From Mucilaginibacter rigui (GTDB lineage: Bacteria; Bacteroidota; Bacteroidia; Sphingobacteriales; Sphingobacteriaceae), in NCBI RefSeq assembly GCF_014773275.1, contig NZ_JACWMW010000001.1, positions 868,001 to 932,000 on the forward strand: a stretch of 64,000 bases of DNA. The letters run 5' to 3'. Of this stretch, positions 39,211 through 47,571 are shown piece after piece. The position numbers and the translations under genes were made by a program. A model generated the notes under the pieces. That model was given only the letters and a program-made list of their open reading frames with translations, had not been told where the DNA came from and ran no database searches. The first letter of the stretch is position 1. Each line of letters starts with the position of its first letter.

Positions 39211-40575
39211 ATGAAACAAACAACTAAACTAACCATTATACTTAACCTGTTTTTAGGTTTAAGTACGGCGGTAAATGCCCAAACACCTGCGGCAACAGAT
39301 CAGCACCCTGAGCTGAAATACCGCAGAAGCTCGTTACACCTCATCCTGCTGGAGTCGGAAGATTTCCCGAGAAAAGAAGTGGTAATGAAAGCTTATCATG
39401 AGGCTCCGTTTCCAGATAAATATAACAACCATAGTATATCTACGATATCTGTCGACCCGTCATCATATGTACTTACAGATGCTGAAAAAGTAGCTGCAGG
39501 GACAAAAAAGAGCGGTATGGGTAACCTTGGAGCAAGCATGTTATCGGGCGTTACGGCGGGCATTGTAGATAAAGACGCTTCAGATATGCCTTTTATAACA
39601 GGCAAAATTGTAAAGGATAAAAAGATAGCGAATCAGCTGGTAGCCAAATGGTTTAACAGGCAGCCCGATGGCAGCTTTGATATGAAGCTTATTGGCGAAC
39701 GCGGTTCGTACGATGCTACCGAAATGCAGGCCAATATAGCCAAAGGCAGCGCAAGGGGCACAGCGTCATTGTCTGACGCTGGTGAAGAACTGATCAAAAA
39801 CACCTTTGTGGTTTTAACCAAACTAAAATTTGTAAGTAATGAGCCTATTGCCGCTGCAATTAGGGAAGTTGCAAAGCTTAAGGCTAATAACTTGCCGGCC
39901 TTATTCCAACCTGCTGCTTACAAGGTACTTGATATTGCCTATAACAAAGCGAAAGAAGGTTATTCGGTATGGACAACCTCATATCTGTATCGGCTGAAAT
40001 GGAACGACTCTATCGCGTCTGTTTTTTATAATGATATGTGGATAGATAAAAGCGCTAAGATCGACAAGAAAAGAAAAGAAGCTTTTGATAATAACAATTT
40101 GTTTGAGTTGGAATATATAGGCAGCGAAAAATCTAGCAGCCTGGTTACTTTTTCGCTTAAAGAGACCCGTACCGAAGACCAGATAGTTGAACTGGCTACT
40201 GTACGTAATGTTGAGCACGTTTTTGCCAAACTGCAAAAGGCCTACGAAGTATTTAAACCAAAAACACCAATCTATTCCGGCGACCCGGTTACCGCTAAAA
40301 TTGGTATGAAGGAAGGCCTGGAAGGCGGCGAGAAATTCGAGGTGCTTGAGCAAACGGTCGACCCCAAAACCGGACTTACCACTTATGTAAAAAAGGGTAC
40401 CGTAACGGTTGATAAAAAACAGATATGGGATAACCGCTTTAACGCCGGCGAAGAAGTATCTGCAAATGATAAAGACGATAAAAAGAAAGATAAGGATAAA
40501 CCAGCAATTGACCGTACTTACTTTAAAGGTGGTGGTAAATTTTACGCAGGTATGCTGTTAAGGCAAGTAAAGTAA
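39211..40575 (+). CDS. Exported protein of unknown function, first gene of five-gene operon
   Basis: A 454-aa protein with signal peptide (MKQTTKLTIILNLFLGLSTAVNAQ). The mature part starts with ELKYRRSSLHLILLESEDFP, has a central Gly/Ala stretch (GNLGASMLSGVTAGIVDKDA), a DMKLIGERGSYDATEMQANI segment, and a lysine/aspartate-rich tail (about 420-435) before the terminal YFKGGGKFYAGMLLRQVK. No family is recognised. It is followed by four more exported-protein genes with gaps of 21, 12, 16 and 23 bases, so it heads a single transcription unit. A periplasmic or outer-membrane location is inferred from the leader. No catalytic motif is seen. Confidence 0.75.
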   Translation: MKQTTKLTIILNLFLGLSTAVNAQTPAATDQHPELKYRRSSLHLILLESEDFPRKEVVMKAYHEAPFPDKYNNHSISTISVDPSSYVLTDAEKVAAGTKKSGMGNLGASMLSGVTAGIVDKDASDMPFITGKIVKDKKIANQLVAKWFNRQPDGSFDMKLIGERGSYDATEMQANIAKGSARGTASLSDAGEELIKNTFVVLTKLKFVSNEPIAAAIREVAKLKANNLPALFQPAAYKVLDIAYNKAKEGYSVWTTSYLYRLKWNDSIASVFYNDMWIDKSAKIDKKRKEAFDNNNLFELEYIGSEKSSSLVTFSLKETRTEDQIVELATVRNVEHVFAKLQKAYEVFKPKTPIYSGDPVTAKIGMKEGLEGGEKFEVLEQTVDPKTGLTTYVKKGTVTVDKKQIWDNRFNAGEEVSANDKDDKKKDKDKPAIDRTYFKGGGKFYAGMLLRQVK

Positions 40576-40596
40576 ACATCAAATTAAATACACATA

Positions 40597-41118
40597 ATGA
40601 AAAAGCATACTACAATTTGGGTAATACTAATGCTGATGATAACGGGTTTTTCATCGGTTGTTAGCGCGCAAACAAATAAAAAGGCAAATGAGGATACCGA
40701 GGCCTGGAGATATGAGCTGGAAGTAGCAGGCACCGGTGTGCAGGGTACTTACCTTTTAAAGGTGTGGTCGTACTCAAAAAAGCCGAATGTGGCTATTGAG
40801 CAGGCTAAAAAGAATGCCGTGCATGGCATCATATTTAAAGGTTTTGCCGGCGATCAGGGTATTTTGGGTAAACCACCGCTAACTACCAACTCAAATTTAG
40901 AGCAGGAGAAGGATGAATGGTTCAAAGATTTTTTTGCCGACGGTGGCAAGTATATGAAGTTTGTATCGCTTGCAAGTGATGGCGCCGTGGCTGCCGAAGA
41001 CCGGATGAAGGTTGGCAAGCAATATAAAATAGGCGTGCTGGTATCTGTTAACGTAGCCCTTCTGCGTAAGGACCTGGAGGATGCCGGGATCATTAAATCA
41101 TTAAACGCGGGCTTTTAA
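40597..41118 (+). CDS. Exported protein of unknown function, LPP20/FlgT-like, second gene of operon
   Basis: A 173-aa protein with signal peptide (about 1-25, ending VVSAQ). The mature part reads WRYELEVAGTGVQGTYLLKV and contains AIEQAKKNAVHGIIFKGFAG, a pattern of the kind seen in LPP20/FlgT-type small envelope domains. It is clearly related to the next gene product: both share the AIE(Q/E)AKK block, a DxFF/RFF block and a final ...L(K/R)...G(I)I...N segment. No lipobox is seen, unlike its neighbour. Function unknown. Confidence 0.72.
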   Translation: MKKHTTIWVILMLMITGFSSVVSAQTNKKANEDTEAWRYELEVAGTGVQGTYLLKVWSYSKKPNVAIEQAKKNAVHGIIFKGFAGDQGILGKPPLTTNSNLEQEKDEWFKDFFADGGKYMKFVSLASDGAVAAEDRMKVGKQYKIGVLVSVNVALLRKDLEDAGIIKSLNAGF

Positions 41119-41130
41119 ACATCAATCATC

Positions 41131-41616
41131 ATGAAGAAAAAATTACTTTATATAAGTTTTGTAGCGGTGGTTATAATTAGCAGCTGCGCCGAGCAAAAGC
41201 AGTTGAACAGTAGCTATACCTATAAAACAGAATGCCTGGGTGTTGAGTTTGATGGGGCGCAAAAAGTAGTTGCCTACTCAGGCAACCGTAACCGCGAGGA
41301 TGCTATTGAAGAAGCCAAAAAGGTTGCCATACGCGAAGTTTTGTTTAATGGCCTGCGCGAAGGCAAACCCGATTGTGATGTTAAACCAATACTGAACGAG
41401 GCTAATGCTTATACCAACCACGAAGAGTATTTTATTCGCTTCTTTAACTCCGAGTATAAAAAATATGCGCTTTATATAGAGGAACGCGCAGGGCAAAAGG
41501 CTAAACAACAGCAAAAGGTTAAAGATGTAGCCCAAAGTACCGGCTACGTGCTGAAAATAAACAGGCCCGGGCTGAAAAATAAAATGATAGCCGACGGCAT
41601 CCTGATAAATCAATAA
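41131..41616 (+). CDS. Lipoprotein of unknown function, LPP20/FlgT-like, third gene of operon
   Basis: A 161-aa probable lipoprotein: leader MKKKLLYISFVAVVIISSCA with lipobox ISSC (Cys19). The mature protein reads YKTECLGVEFDGAQKVVAYS and AIEEAKKVAIREVLFNGLRE, then YKKYALYIEERAGQKAKQQQ. It is a diverged paralog of the preceding gene product and adds membrane anchoring. It lies 12 bases after that gene. Function unknown; a scaffold or sensor of an envelope complex is possible. Confidence 0.75.
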   Translation: MKKKLLYISFVAVVIISSCAEQKQLNSSYTYKTECLGVEFDGAQKVVAYSGNRNREDAIEEAKKVAIREVLFNGLREGKPDCDVKPILNEANAYTNHEEYFIRFFNSEYKKYALYIEERAGQKAKQQQKVKDVAQSTGYVLKINRPGLKNKMIADGILINQ

Positions 41617-41632
41617 CATTCAATCCTAATCA

Positions 41633-42592
41633 ATGAAACGACAGATAATGAAGATAGCTCTTGTATCATTAATGGTACTGGGAGCAATAACAGCAGGGTT
41701 TTCGCAGGCAAAAAAGCCAACCCTAATGGTGGTGCCAAGCGATGTATGGTGTAATACTAATGGTTATATGCAGGTGTATGATGATCAGGGCACCAAGGTA
41801 AAGATCCCCGATTATAAAAGGGCGTTCCAGGAAAATAGCGACCTGCTGGCGGTGATCAGTAAGATAAACGGTATGATGGCCGAGCGTGGTTTCCCGCTAA
41901 AAAATATGGAATCGGTTATTAAAACGCTGGAGTCTGAACGTGCCGAGAATGCTATCCTTACCTCAAAAAGTGGTGCGGGTGTATCAGAAAGCCCAATGGA
42001 TAAGCTTAAGAAAACAGCCAAAGCCGATATCATCATCCAGTTAACCTGGGATGTGTTAAAAACCGGTCCCAAAAAGTCGGTACGTTTTACTATGCAGGGG
42101 ATTGATGCTTATAGTGATAAGGAAGTAGCCACAGCAGGCGGTACAGGTAATCCATCATTTTCGGCAGAGACCGCTGTTTTACTGGAAGAAGCCGTTGCCG
42201 ATAAGGTAGATAACTTTAATGTGGGCCTGCAAAGGCATTTCGACGACTTGTTTGCGAATGGCCGCGAGATCATTATCCGCATCAAAAAGTTCGATTCGTG
42301 GAAAAACGACCTGGAAACAGAGTACGGTGGCAAAGAGCTAAATGTAGTTATTGAAGACTGGGTTCGTGCCAACTCCCTGAAAGGCCGTTTCAGCAATAGC
42401 GATGCGACCGAAAATATGATGTTGTTTGAGCAGGTGCGCATCCCATTGTATGATGCAAACGGTAACGCAATAGATGCGCGGGGATTTGCCCGTGGATTGC
42501 AAAAGTTCCTTGCGGCGGCGCCATACTCTATTGTAAACAAGCTTACAGCTAAAGGCCTTGGCCAGGCGGTGATAGTACTGGGCGAGAAGTAA
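41633..42592 (+). CDS. Exported DUF6175-like protein, fourth gene of operon
   Basis: A 319-aa protein whose leader MKIALVSLMVLGAITAGFSQ starts at an internal ATG at 41648 (residue 6); the 41633 ATG is also possible. The mature part begins KKPTLMVVPSDVWCNTNGYM, which I recall as typical of DUF6175, and includes AKADIIIQLTWDVLKTGPKK, VRFTMQGIDAYSDKEVATAG, and a C-terminal LTAKGLGQAVIVLGEK. The alternating segments resemble the TolB-N/CsgG/LpoB type of fold, which is inference. Family assignment is from memory. Confidence 0.72.
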   Translation: MKRQIMKIALVSLMVLGAITAGFSQAKKPTLMVVPSDVWCNTNGYMQVYDDQGTKVKIPDYKRAFQENSDLLAVISKINGMMAERGFPLKNMESVIKTLESERAENAILTSKSGAGVSESPMDKLKKTAKADIIIQLTWDVLKTGPKKSVRFTMQGIDAYSDKEVATAGGTGNPSFSAETAVLLEEAVADKVDNFNVGLQRHFDDLFANGREIIIRIKKFDSWKNDLETEYGGKELNVVIEDWVRANSLKGRFSNSDATENMMLFEQVRIPLYDANGNAIDARGFARGLQKFLAAAPYSIVNKLTAKGLGQAVIVLGEK

Positions 42593-42615
42593 TAATTAAA
42601 TAAGAGACAACCAAC

Positions 42616-43578
42616 ATGAAAAAAATAATGATAACCTGCATGTCGCTTTTCCTACTGATAGGCGCGTATGCACAAAAAACTACCATTGTAAGGTCGGCGA
42701 ATGGGGGGAATAGCGGCAGGGTTACACTTGCTGCTTACATTCCTGACCAGGTTGATGATTTGCCGGAGGCAGCCCGTAATATGCTGGGCAATAAGCTGAA
42801 CCAGATCATCAGCCAAAATGGTTTTGGTGGCGATGAAGGCCAGCGCTTTATTATCACCGCTAACGTTGTGGTGCTTACCAAAGACATGCTCTCTAACGCA
42901 CCGCCTATGACGGCCCTTACGCTTGATGTTAACCTGTATATCGGCGATGGTTACGAGGGCACAAAGTTTGCCAGTACCTCCATGCCGGTTAAAGGCGTGG
43001 GAGAGAATGTTGCTAAAGCCTACATAAACGCCTTTAAAAACATCAACCTTAACGACCCTAAACTGCAAGCCTTTGTAGAAAAAGGAAAGGCAAAGATCAT
43101 TAGTTATTACAATACCCATTGCGATGTAATTATTAAACAGGCCCAAACCCTGGCTAATACCGGCCGTATGGACGAGGCTATTTATAACCTAACATCGGTA
43201 CCCCAGGCATGTACCAATTGCTATACCCGTTCAATGGCGCAGGTGGCACCTATCTATAAAAAACAGGTAGAGAAAGATTGTGCTACCAAACTTAACCAGG
43301 CTAAAAGCTTGTGGGCTGCTAACCAGGATATAAACGGAGCCAACGCCGCAAGTGAGGTTTTATCGCAGATAGACCCACAGGCAGGTTGTTACAAAGATGT
43401 AAAGGTTTTTGTAGCACAGATAGCCAAACGCGTTAAAGAAATTGATAACCGCGAATGGAGTTTTAAACTGCAGGAACAAAAAAACGATATGGGGATAATT
43501 AAGGCTGCCCGCGACGTAGCTGTAGCTTATGCGGCACAGCCGCGCACCACCGTATATAATGTACATGGTTGGTGGTAA
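42616..43578 (+). CDS. Exported protein of unknown function, CsgG/LpoB-like, last gene of operon
   Basis: A 320-aa protein with signal peptide (MKKIMITCMSLFLLIGAYAQ). The N-terminal half has RVTLAAYIPDQVDDLPEAAR and QRFIITANVVVLTKDMLSNA, then LTLDVNLYIGDGYEGTKFAS, which has the look of a TolB-N/CsgG-like beta sandwich. The C-terminal half is helical (TPR-like: AQTLANTGRMDEAIYNLTSV, AKSLWAANQDINGANAASEV) with CxxC (CTNC). The end NVHGWW is unusual and aromatic. It is the distal gene of the unit and is followed by a strong terminator. Function unknown. Confidence 0.75.
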   Translation: MKKIMITCMSLFLLIGAYAQKTTIVRSANGGNSGRVTLAAYIPDQVDDLPEAARNMLGNKLNQIISQNGFGGDEGQRFIITANVVVLTKDMLSNAPPMTALTLDVNLYIGDGYEGTKFASTSMPVKGVGENVAKAYINAFKNINLNDPKLQAFVEKGKAKIISYYNTHCDVIIKQAQTLANTGRMDEAIYNLTSVPQACTNCYTRSMAQVAPIYKKQVEKDCATKLNQAKSLWAANQDINGANAASEVLSQIDPQAGCYKDVKVFVAQIAKRVKEIDNREWSFKLQEQKNDMGIIKAARDVAVAYAAQPRTTVYNVHGWW

Positions 43579-43660
43579 TGATTCACACATACGAATGTTA
43601 AAAAGATTATTAGTTAACAGCCAAAGCTTTATTGTAAAGCAATAGTATTATACATAAGGA

Positions 43661-43686
43661 GCCGGCAATTTTGCCGGCTTTTTATA
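43661..43686 (+). terminator. Terminator after five-gene operon
   Basis: Stem GCCGGCAA / TTGCCGGC with flanking TTTTTAT, 83 bases after the stop of the last operon gene. The pcm promoter box begins directly after it. Confidence 0.85.
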
Positions 43687-45025: not shown

Positions 45026-46924
45026 TTATTTTTTTTGAGGTTTCACAACCAGTACCGGTACATTCACCTTATGGCGTACAGAATCAACAGTGGTGCCAAA
45101 TATCAGGTCTTTTAAAACTTTATGCCCGTGAGATCCCATCACCACAAAATCAATTTTTGATTGATTGATGATCTCGGCAATTGCCGTTGCTGCACCGCCG
45201 TAGCCAATTTTTGCTTCGGCCTTGTAATGTAAGGCGGTTAGGGTGTTCACGTATTTATCCAGGTTGTCTACATCGCTTTGGGTTTCGTTGTCCATCACCT
45301 GCCCGCCATAATAACGTGCACCTGCGGTTTCAACCACATGTATTAAGGTATAATGCGCTTTTTTGCCACCCTGCATTAAGGCATGGCGGATGCAATCCTC
45401 ATCATTCCTTGAAAAATCAATGGTGATGGCTATATTATTATAGGTTACGGCTTCAAGGTTATCTAATTTGGCTGCTATACCGTGCGGTACATATATAGGC
45501 TGACTAATATGTTTATAAAGCAGTGGGCGAAGAAATACATACAATAACAATACTCCAATCCCTACAGCAATAGGTGATATTACAAAATGCACCAGGTTAG
45601 CAGAGCCTGGGCTTGTGGCGGCCCATGTTTCTATTTCTTGTATCACCAGCCTTACGTTAAGGCCAACTATTAATGTAGCAAATACCCAAGCCAATATTTT
45701 TAAAGGTACACTTGTGGCAAAATTGCCCATACGTTTTTTATCTGATGTAAAGTGGATGAGCGGGATAACAGCAAAGCCCAGTTGTAAGCTCAGTACCACC
45801 TGGCTTAATATCAGCAGCTTGCCCAAACCTTCTTCCCCAAAGTGCAGGATGGTAAAGAATGCAGGGATAATTGCGAGTAATCGCGTTAGCAAACGGCGGA
45901 GCCATGGGGCAATGCGCAGATTTAAGTGGCCTTCCATGATGATCTGCCCGGCAAGGGTGCCGGTAACGGTAGAGCTTTGCCCGGCGGCTATCAGCGCTAT
46001 GGCAAACAGGGCAGGGGCCAGCTTGCCAAAAATGTTGGTCAATAGTTTATGGGCGTCCTGGATCTCGGCCACCTGATGAAAGCCACGGCCGTAAAATGCG
46101 CTGGCGGCTAATATTAATATAGCGGCATTTACAAAAAAAGCCAGGTTAAGAGCAATGGTAGTATCCCAAAAGTTATAGCGAATGGCATTTTTTATACCAG
46201 CCTCGCTGCGGTCTATTTTACGGGTTTGTACTAATGATGAATGCAGGTACAGGTTATGCGGCATAACTGTTGCACCAATAATACCAATGGCCAGATAAAG
46301 CGATGTGCTGTTTAACCTGGTAGGGATAAAACCTTTGGCAACATCTATCACATTGGGCTGTACAATAAACATTTGCGCCAAAAAGGCTACACCCACTATA
46401 AATATCAGGGAAATGATAAAGCCCTCCAGTTTACGCATGCCTTTGTTGAGCAAAAACAGAAGTAACAAAGTGTCTAATAAAGTAATGGATACCCCCCATA
46501 TAAGTGGCAGGCCAAAAAGCAGGTTCAAGCCTATGGCCATACCTATTATCTCGGCCAAATCGCAGGCTATAATGGCTATCTGGGCCAGTATGTACAGGCA
46601 AAAGTTTACAAAGCGTGGATAGGTATGCTTTGATGCCTGTGCCAGATCCAGCCCGCGCACAATACCTAAGCGTACAGCAAGGTTCTGTAGCAGTAAAGCT
46701 ATGAGGTTTGATAATAGCAACACCCATATCAGCTTATAACCAAACTGACTACCTGCGGCCAAATCTGTCGCCCAGTTGCCCGGGTCCATATAACCTACGC
46801 TTACCAAATAAGCAGGGCCAAGGAAGGATAGCAGTTTGCGCCAACCGGTCTTATTTTCAGTAGCTACAGTATTGTGTACGTTGCCTAACGAGTGGCTATC
46901 ATGTTGGGTAGTGTTTGATGTCAT
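45026..46924 (-). CDS. mntH: Nramp-type Mn2+/Fe2+ transporter fused to a universal-stress domain
   Basis: Proton-coupled divalent-metal importer, 632 aa. Residues of about 25-475 form the Nramp fold, with the metal-binding DPGNWATDLAAGSQFG motif near the start of TM1, ACDLAEIIGMAIGLNLLFG and the TM6 MPHNLYLHSSL motif. Residues of about 490-632 form a UspA domain: NIAITIDFSRNDEDCIRHAL, then FVVMGSHGHKVLKDLIFG and VRHKVNVPVLVVKP, including the G-x2-G-type nucleotide motif. Ordinary MntH is about 410-440 aa, so the tail is an addition. The start codon overlaps the mntR stop by 4 bases. Mn2+ import with nucleotide-responsive control is inferred. Confidence 0.92.
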   Translation of the reverse strand: MTSNTTQHDSHSLGNVHNTVATENKTGWRKLLSFLGPAYLVSVGYMDPGNWATDLAAGSQFGYKLIWVLLLSNLIALLLQNLAVRLGIVRGLDLAQASKHTYPRFVNFCLYILAQIAIIACDLAEIIGMAIGLNLLFGLPLIWGVSITLLDTLLLLFLLNKGMRKLEGFIISLIFIVGVAFLAQMFIVQPNVIDVAKGFIPTRLNSTSLYLAIGIIGATVMPHNLYLHSSLVQTRKIDRSEAGIKNAIRYNFWDTTIALNLAFFVNAAILILAASAFYGRGFHQVAEIQDAHKLLTNIFGKLAPALFAIALIAAGQSSTVTGTLAGQIIMEGHLNLRIAPWLRRLLTRLLAIIPAFFTILHFGEEGLGKLLILSQVVLSLQLGFAVIPLIHFTSDKKRMGNFATSVPLKILAWVFATLIVGLNVRLVIQEIETWAATSPGSANLVHFVISPIAVGIGVLLLYVFLRPLLYKHISQPIYVPHGIAAKLDNLEAVTYNNIAITIDFSRNDEDCIRHALMQGGKKAHYTLIHVVETAGARYYGGQVMDNETQSDVDNLDKYVNTLTALHYKAEAKIGYGGAATAIAEIINQSKIDFVVMGSHGHKVLKDLIFGTTVDSVRHKVNVPVLVVKPQKK

Positions 46925-47571
46925 AAAGCTATCAATAGGTTAATGGCCACATCGCGGCTTATTTGTATGTCTTTGTTTTCCATTTGCAGTATTACTGCGT
47001 TATCGTAAGTAATTATTTCTTTAACGGTTATCTTTTTTCCGATGATAAGCCCGTGTTTCTCCAGGTATTGTAAAAATGCCGTGGAGTGGTCCTTAACCCC
47101 TGATATAATACCGCATGTGTTAACACCAACAACAGAAATTGGTTTAAGATCGTTCTTTTTAAAATTGCCCTTACTGTCGGGTATAGGGTCGCCATGCGGG
47201 TCGCGGCTGGGGAAACCCATAAATTCATCCAGCCGGTCTATCAGTTCGTTTGATGAAATATGTTCCATTTCTTCGGCCATATCATGCACCTCGTCCCATT
47301 TAAAATGCAGTTTCTCTACCAAAAAATATTCCCAAAGGCGGTGCCTGCGGATGATGTTGATAGCAACCTTCTCGCCGGTTTGTGTTAAACTAACTCCCTG
47401 GTAACGGGTATAATTGATTAAAAGCTTTTCGGCAAGCTTCCGTAGCATGTCCGTCACTGAGGATGCTTTGGTGGCTAACTCGGCTGCTATTTGGTTGGTG
47501 CTCACATTCTCTGTTATCTGCGATAACTTAAAAATGGCCTTTAAATAGTTCTCTTCGGCTAATGTGTACAT
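46921..47571 (-). CDS. mntR: DtxR/MntR-family metal-dependent repressor
   Basis: Metal-responsive transcription repressor, 216 aa. N-terminal winged helix shows YTLAEENYLKAIFKLSQITE, STNQIAAELATKASSVTDML (recognition helix) and YQGVSLTQTGEKVAINIIRR. The dimerisation domain carries metal-ligand candidates in DEVHDMAEEMEHI. The C-terminal FeoA/SH3-like domain starts near PISVVGVNTCG. It overlaps mntH by 4 bases, and a palindrome at 47591-47610 lies just before it, so the unit is probably autoregulated by Mn2+. Long form with the C-terminal domain, like DtxR/IdeR, not like B. subtilis MntR. Confidence 0.92.
   Translation of the reverse strand: MYTLAEENYLKAIFKLSQITENVSTNQIAAELATKASSVTDMLRKLAEKLLINYTRYQGVSLTQTGEKVAINIIRRHRLWEYFLVEKLHFKWDEVHDMAEEMEHISSNELIDRLDEFMGFPSRDPHGDPIPDSKGNFKKNDLKPISVVGVNTCGIISGVKDHSTAFLQYLEKHGLIIGKKITVKEIITYDNAVILQMENKDIQISRDVAINLLIAL

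Follow-up and report, generated by a model that had tools for sequence, protein, structure and literature searches.

The 64,000-nt stretch of Mucilaginibacter rigui DNA analyzed here (the window) contains five consecutive ORFs that all encode exported proteins, and the question is whether these act together at the cell envelope and, if so, in what capacity. The ORFs, labelled g1 to g5 in 5' to 3' order (window 39211-43578), and the terminator that closes the array are the following:

39211-40575, plus strand: g1, an exported 454 amino acid protein with a FlgT-like predicted fold and no Pfam family
40597-41118, plus strand: g2, an exported 173 amino acid protein, paralogue of g3, with no Pfam family above cut-off
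41131-41616, plus strand: g3, a 161 amino acid lipoprotein (lipobox ISSC), paralogue of g2
41633-42592, plus strand: g4, an exported 319 amino acid DUF6175 protein (PF19672) with a CsgG/GNA1162/PelC-like predicted fold, the most conserved of the five
42616-43578, plus strand: g5, an exported 320 amino acid protein with invariant cysteines and a C-terminal GWW
43660-43682, plus strand: intrinsic terminator, a G+C-rich hairpin and then TTTTT

This layout agrees with an earlier note made from the sequence, which had described five consecutive plus-strand genes separated by gaps of 21, 12, 16 and 23 bases, signal peptides on all products, a lipoprotein as the third product and a strong terminator closing the operon. 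Each of the five proteins has a basic/hydrophobic N-terminus and a signal-peptidase-like site, and g3 carries the lipobox within VVIISSC. The terminator (GGAGCCGGCAATTTTGCCGGCTTTTT) has a folding energy of -25.1 kcal/mol (z = -6.0 versus shuffles); a simple consensus scan reported the hairpin on the minus strand only. The set is flanked in the window by priA upstream and pcm downstream (Pfam); both are housekeeping genes and offer no clue to function. Further along the window, on the minus strand, lie genes for a 632 amino acid Nramp metal transporter with a universal stress protein domain at its C-terminus (45026-46924) and for an iron-dependent-repressor family regulator (46921-47571), which overlap by a few bases.

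Our comparative analysis showed that the five genes are one conserved unit that travels together across Bacteroidota. Searching genome contigs with g4 as the query yielded 51 named loci, all from Bacteroidota. A lack of joint conservation in relatives would have refuted the earlier note, and this did not occur. The order g1-g2-g3-g4-g5 was found to be kept in 38 of the 51 loci, and g3 was not found in another eight. The remaining loci are one at a contig end, some with duplications, one with a split g4 and one in which g1 has moved. All set genes share a single strand in every locus (51/51), and the intergenic gaps are mostly of 5-30 bases. Among 395 Bacteroidia genomes, g5 was detected in 34, g4 in 33, g2 in 31 and g1 in 23. 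All genomes with g4 (33/33) have g5 on the same contig, at 100 bases or less from the matched stretch in 27 and at 530 bases or less in all; the odds of such an overlap by random draw are about 10^-47, although the genomes are not independent. The co-occurrence counts and the loci therefore identify g2-g4-g5 as the core, g1 as a usual member and g3 as the most dispensable one. A unit kept in order over several Bacteroidota families must have some specific task at the cell envelope.

The window belongs to a 4.7-Mb genome, and g4 is present in two of the 36 other genomes sampled from the same genus. The g4 of one locus (L034) is 97% identical to that of the window, the nearest named relatives are Mucilaginibacter species, g4 identity outside the genus is 55-72%, and one member of the set is 55-73% identical between distant groups. 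In the named Mucilaginibacter carriers, pcm is downstream of the set in five of five and priA is upstream in all four in which the contig reaches that far. The non-carrier G004 has priA and pcm adjacent, with about 100 bases between them, and the non-carrier G028 has a PD-(D/E)XK (PDDEXK_3) gene between them instead (L237, 1004-1417). In Mucilaginibacter the set is therefore gained or lost whole, behaving as an all-or-none cassette at the priA-pcm site. Families are intermixed in the g4 tree, in which some MAG names may be wrong, so that horizontal transfer of the set is possible. No plasmid in the collection searched carries the set. Phage carriage was considered and rejected, as the sole match is an unannotated scaffold from stool (L175; MT836698.1), deposited as "Bacteriophage sp." and probably mislabelled bacterial DNA, which encodes a full-length DUF6175 relative of 52% identity. 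A role in anti-phage defence was likewise discarded, given that PADLOC returned no match for any of the five.

g4 is a full-length member of DUF6175 (PF19672; E = 1.9e-121, 405.2 bits versus a cut-off of 23, positions 1-293 of 293). This family is a name only, and no paper on it was found among the open-licence papers searched. Structure prediction covered g4 and g1. The model of g4 (pLDDT 86.4) matches GNA1162 (E = 5.3e-4), CsgG (E = 1.2e-3), FlgT (E = 8e-3) and PelC (E = 1.8e-2) in the PDB; GNA1162 is the best match (prob 1.00, TM by target 0.49-0.57), and the CsgG structure matched is the pre-pore form. A CsgG/TolB-N-like character had been proposed for protein 4, and the best fold matches of the model (GNA1162, CsgG, PelC) support it; it is likely, but not proven, that g4 shares the CsgG/TolB-N-like alpha/beta fold superfamily. 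The CsgG family (PF03783) has no match at E<=1 in any of g1-g5 and none in the window's genome, hhalign gives about 1% or less for CsgG-family alignments with each of the five proteins, and g4 has no lipobox.

The predicted model of g1 (pLDDT 77.4) matches the LPHT ring of Vibrio (E = 1.6e-4) and FlgT (E = 3.0e-4) with probabilities of 0.99-1.00, the next best match having E = 0.44. FlgT-like domains had been expected in the set, and a FlgT fold resemblance is indeed predicted, although in g1, which the earlier note had left unassigned, and not in proteins 2 and 3, to which that note had assigned it. Superposition of g1 on the LPHT ring and FlgT is poor (TM 0.16-0.21), and whole-chain TM by query length is 0.16-0.30 for the fold matches; because these global scores are low, the likeness of both g1 and g4 is one at the level of domains. 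g1 has no Pfam family, neither it nor its relatives have a FlgT hit in Pfam, and FlgT_C is absent from the window's genome. A profile match of g1 to the plant ribosomal protein eL14 (E = 5e-4) was rejected as improbable for an exported protein, and the fold search did not echo it. In a group of loci (L140-L144), extra g1 homologues lie outside the operon, several of them with N-terminal UVR-type repeats, and these copies adjoin a barrel-like protein with similar repeats.

Profile comparison identifies g2 as a paralogue of g3 (hhalign 99.9%, E = 1.3e-35). A simple lipobox-like pattern is present in 38 of 60 g3 homologues, whereas each of the other four proteins shows it in 5-7 of 70-85 homologues. 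Neither g2 nor g3 has a Pfam match above cut-off, and LPP20 (PF02169) matches neither of them nor anything else in the window's genome. The LPP20 likeness once suggested for proteins 2 and 3 is not supported by sequence profiles: the initial hhalign values of 78-88% came from the signal peptides and dropped to 0.8-2.3% once these were removed. By eye, both proteins run from a strand through an AIEQAKKNAV helix and a long insert to a further strand and a C-terminal helix, an order that recalls the topology of FlgP (PMC12222027), in whose family ring formation accompanies an insert after the SHS2 helix (PMC12222027); the missing Pfam match and the low hhalign values set them apart from the SHS2-like lipoproteins of the LPP20/FlgP kind. 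A CodY helix-turn-helix match in g2 (35 of 47 members, best E = 4.3e-5, the window protein below cut-off) was regarded as a chance helix similarity, because it spans 27 residues in the C-terminal part of proteins that are exported. A profile match between g2 and g4 (75%) was mostly due to the signal peptide and disappeared after its removal. In g5, four cysteines are invariant (169, 202, 222 and 258), and most homologues end in a C-terminal tryptophan, as does the GWW terminus of the window protein.

Relatives of the set contain several fusions and rearrangements. In three loci, exported g3-like proteins are fused to a caspase-like Peptidase_C14 domain (L046, 2324-3694, E = 1.8e-20; L082, 3200-4606, E = 7.7e-23; and the same long form in L083, 6540-7931). 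These fusions carry both catalytic motifs, GHG and DACFSG, and the nearest solved structures to the fused domain, by sequence, are metacaspases. A fourth locus (L076) has a stand-alone C14 gene about 1.2 kb past g5, while no C14-type protease gene was found in the 64,000-nt window. The statement that no catalytic domain is included is thus true of this operon, but not of the three relatives in which protein 3 is fused to the protease. Searches of the open-licence literature for periplasmic caspases, or for LPP20 with Bacteroidetes or caspase, returned nothing useful. L033 and its kin, which form one clade, encode DUF6175 with a g2-like domain fused to its N-terminus, and this fusion directly links g2-type and DUF6175 proteins. 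Homologues of g1 in two genomes (G362 and L073) have a C-terminal tail of 200-230 amino acids that looks barrel-like by eye, in which Pfam finds no family, and L134 encodes an OMP_b-brl-like protein between g1 and g2 (E = 8.1e-6, just below cut-off). The barrel-like tails, the extra g1 copies beside a barrel-like protein and the OMP_b-brl-like protein all point to the outer membrane, and none of them proves it.

Known envelope systems offer partial parallels. PelC is reported to form a ring of twelve lipoproteins in the periplasm, as part of the PelBC complex for exopolysaccharide export (PMC12141448). The set resembles this system in the fold match of g4 to PelC and in the barrel-like proteins associated in some relatives, whereas genes for PelB, a synthase or polysaccharide do not recur in its vicinity and the lipoprotein here is g3, not the PelC-like g4. 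FlgO, FlgP and FlgT make up the H ring, the loss of which leaves flagella in the periplasm (PMC7990780). With the Vibrio H ring (LPHT ring 8z5n, FlgT 3w1e) the set shares the combination of a lipoprotein with soluble periplasmic components as well as the match to FlgT by predicted fold in g1 and, more weakly, in g4; unlike it, the set has no flagellar genes among its recurrent neighbours and no FlgT_C in its genome, and identity in the fold alignments is 7-10%. CsgG and GNA1162 provide the best fold matches of g4, which differs from them in not being a lipoprotein and in having no CsgG Pfam match, PF03783 being absent from the genome.

We infer a joint complex, a ring form, an outer-membrane location and a role in export or anchoring. 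The operon may encode one outer-membrane-associated periplasmic complex, probably ring-forming, that helps to export or anchor a surface structure, a reading that we favour tentatively and rate somewhat short of even. An outer-membrane-associated machine is probable because g1 and g4 are predicted to fold like outer-membrane ring-forming proteins. The ring would be comparable to those of PelC or CsgG or to the H ring of Vibrio (FlgO/FlgP/FlgT), with g4 (DUF6175) and g1 supplying alpha/beta domains of the CsgG/FlgT type, the lipoprotein g3 and its paralogue g2 holding the assembly at the membrane and g5 serving as a disulfide-stabilised adaptor. Such an assembly would attach to a beta-barrel of the outer membrane and assist in exporting or anchoring a polymer or appendage of the cell surface. 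PelC illustrates the way in which a ring of this sort serves a barrel (PMC12141448), and in the H ring FlgT, FlgP and FlgO aid the passage of a structure through the outer membrane (PMC7990780).

The protease fusions suggest a different reading, namely that the set is a complex that senses envelope stress or responds to damage and whose output, in some lineages, is a caspase-like protease. In this view g3 would be a sensor or adaptor close to the membrane, with the protease as its fused (L046, L082, L083) or separate (L076) effector. However, the fusion occurs in only 3 of the 51 loci, no such protease gene was found in the window and none of the five proteins has a match in PADLOC. In addition, the fused protein has a signal sequence, and its substrates would therefore lie outside the cytoplasm. 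We consider this reading unlikely.

CsgG/TolB-N-like domains are also found in LpoB/Tol-type factors, and the set could instead modulate cell-wall synthesis or outer-membrane integrity as an LpoB/Tol-like bridge that connects the outer membrane with partners in the inner membrane or the wall, which would suit a lipoprotein g3 and a set with no recognisable export channel. Its patchy presence (33 of 395 genomes of the class and two of 36 of the same genus) is nevertheless unlike that of core wall factors, and no wall-synthesis gene recurs beside the set in the clusters inspected, so that a role of this kind seems distinctly unlikely. If g4 formed the pore of a CsgG-type secretion channel that works alone, this would agree with the match of the predicted g4 fold to pre-pore CsgG, but such a channel is very improbable, considering that g4 has neither a lipobox nor a CsgG Pfam match, that the window's genome has no PF03783 and that the best E-value of g4 goes to GNA1162 and not to CsgG.

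The ring-forming outer-membrane complex can also be put in a more specific form, as an undescribed Bacteroidota machine composed of FlgT/CsgG-like parts together with small new paralogues, in which a caspase-like protease carried on the lipoprotein in some lineages would couple assembly to regulated proteolysis; we regard this elaboration as quite doubtful. If the set is a ring-type outer-membrane assembly, the CsgG/PelC/FlgT theme would extend to Bacteroidota, a phylum known more for different routes of export. The caspase fusions offer a concrete handle on what the set responds to. Regarding the cargo, the neighbours across the inspected clusters include no cargo-naming gene conserved beyond clade-level synteny. 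In four related Bacteroidales loci (L061, L063, L066 and L069), an alkaline phosphatase gene is located immediately upstream of the set.
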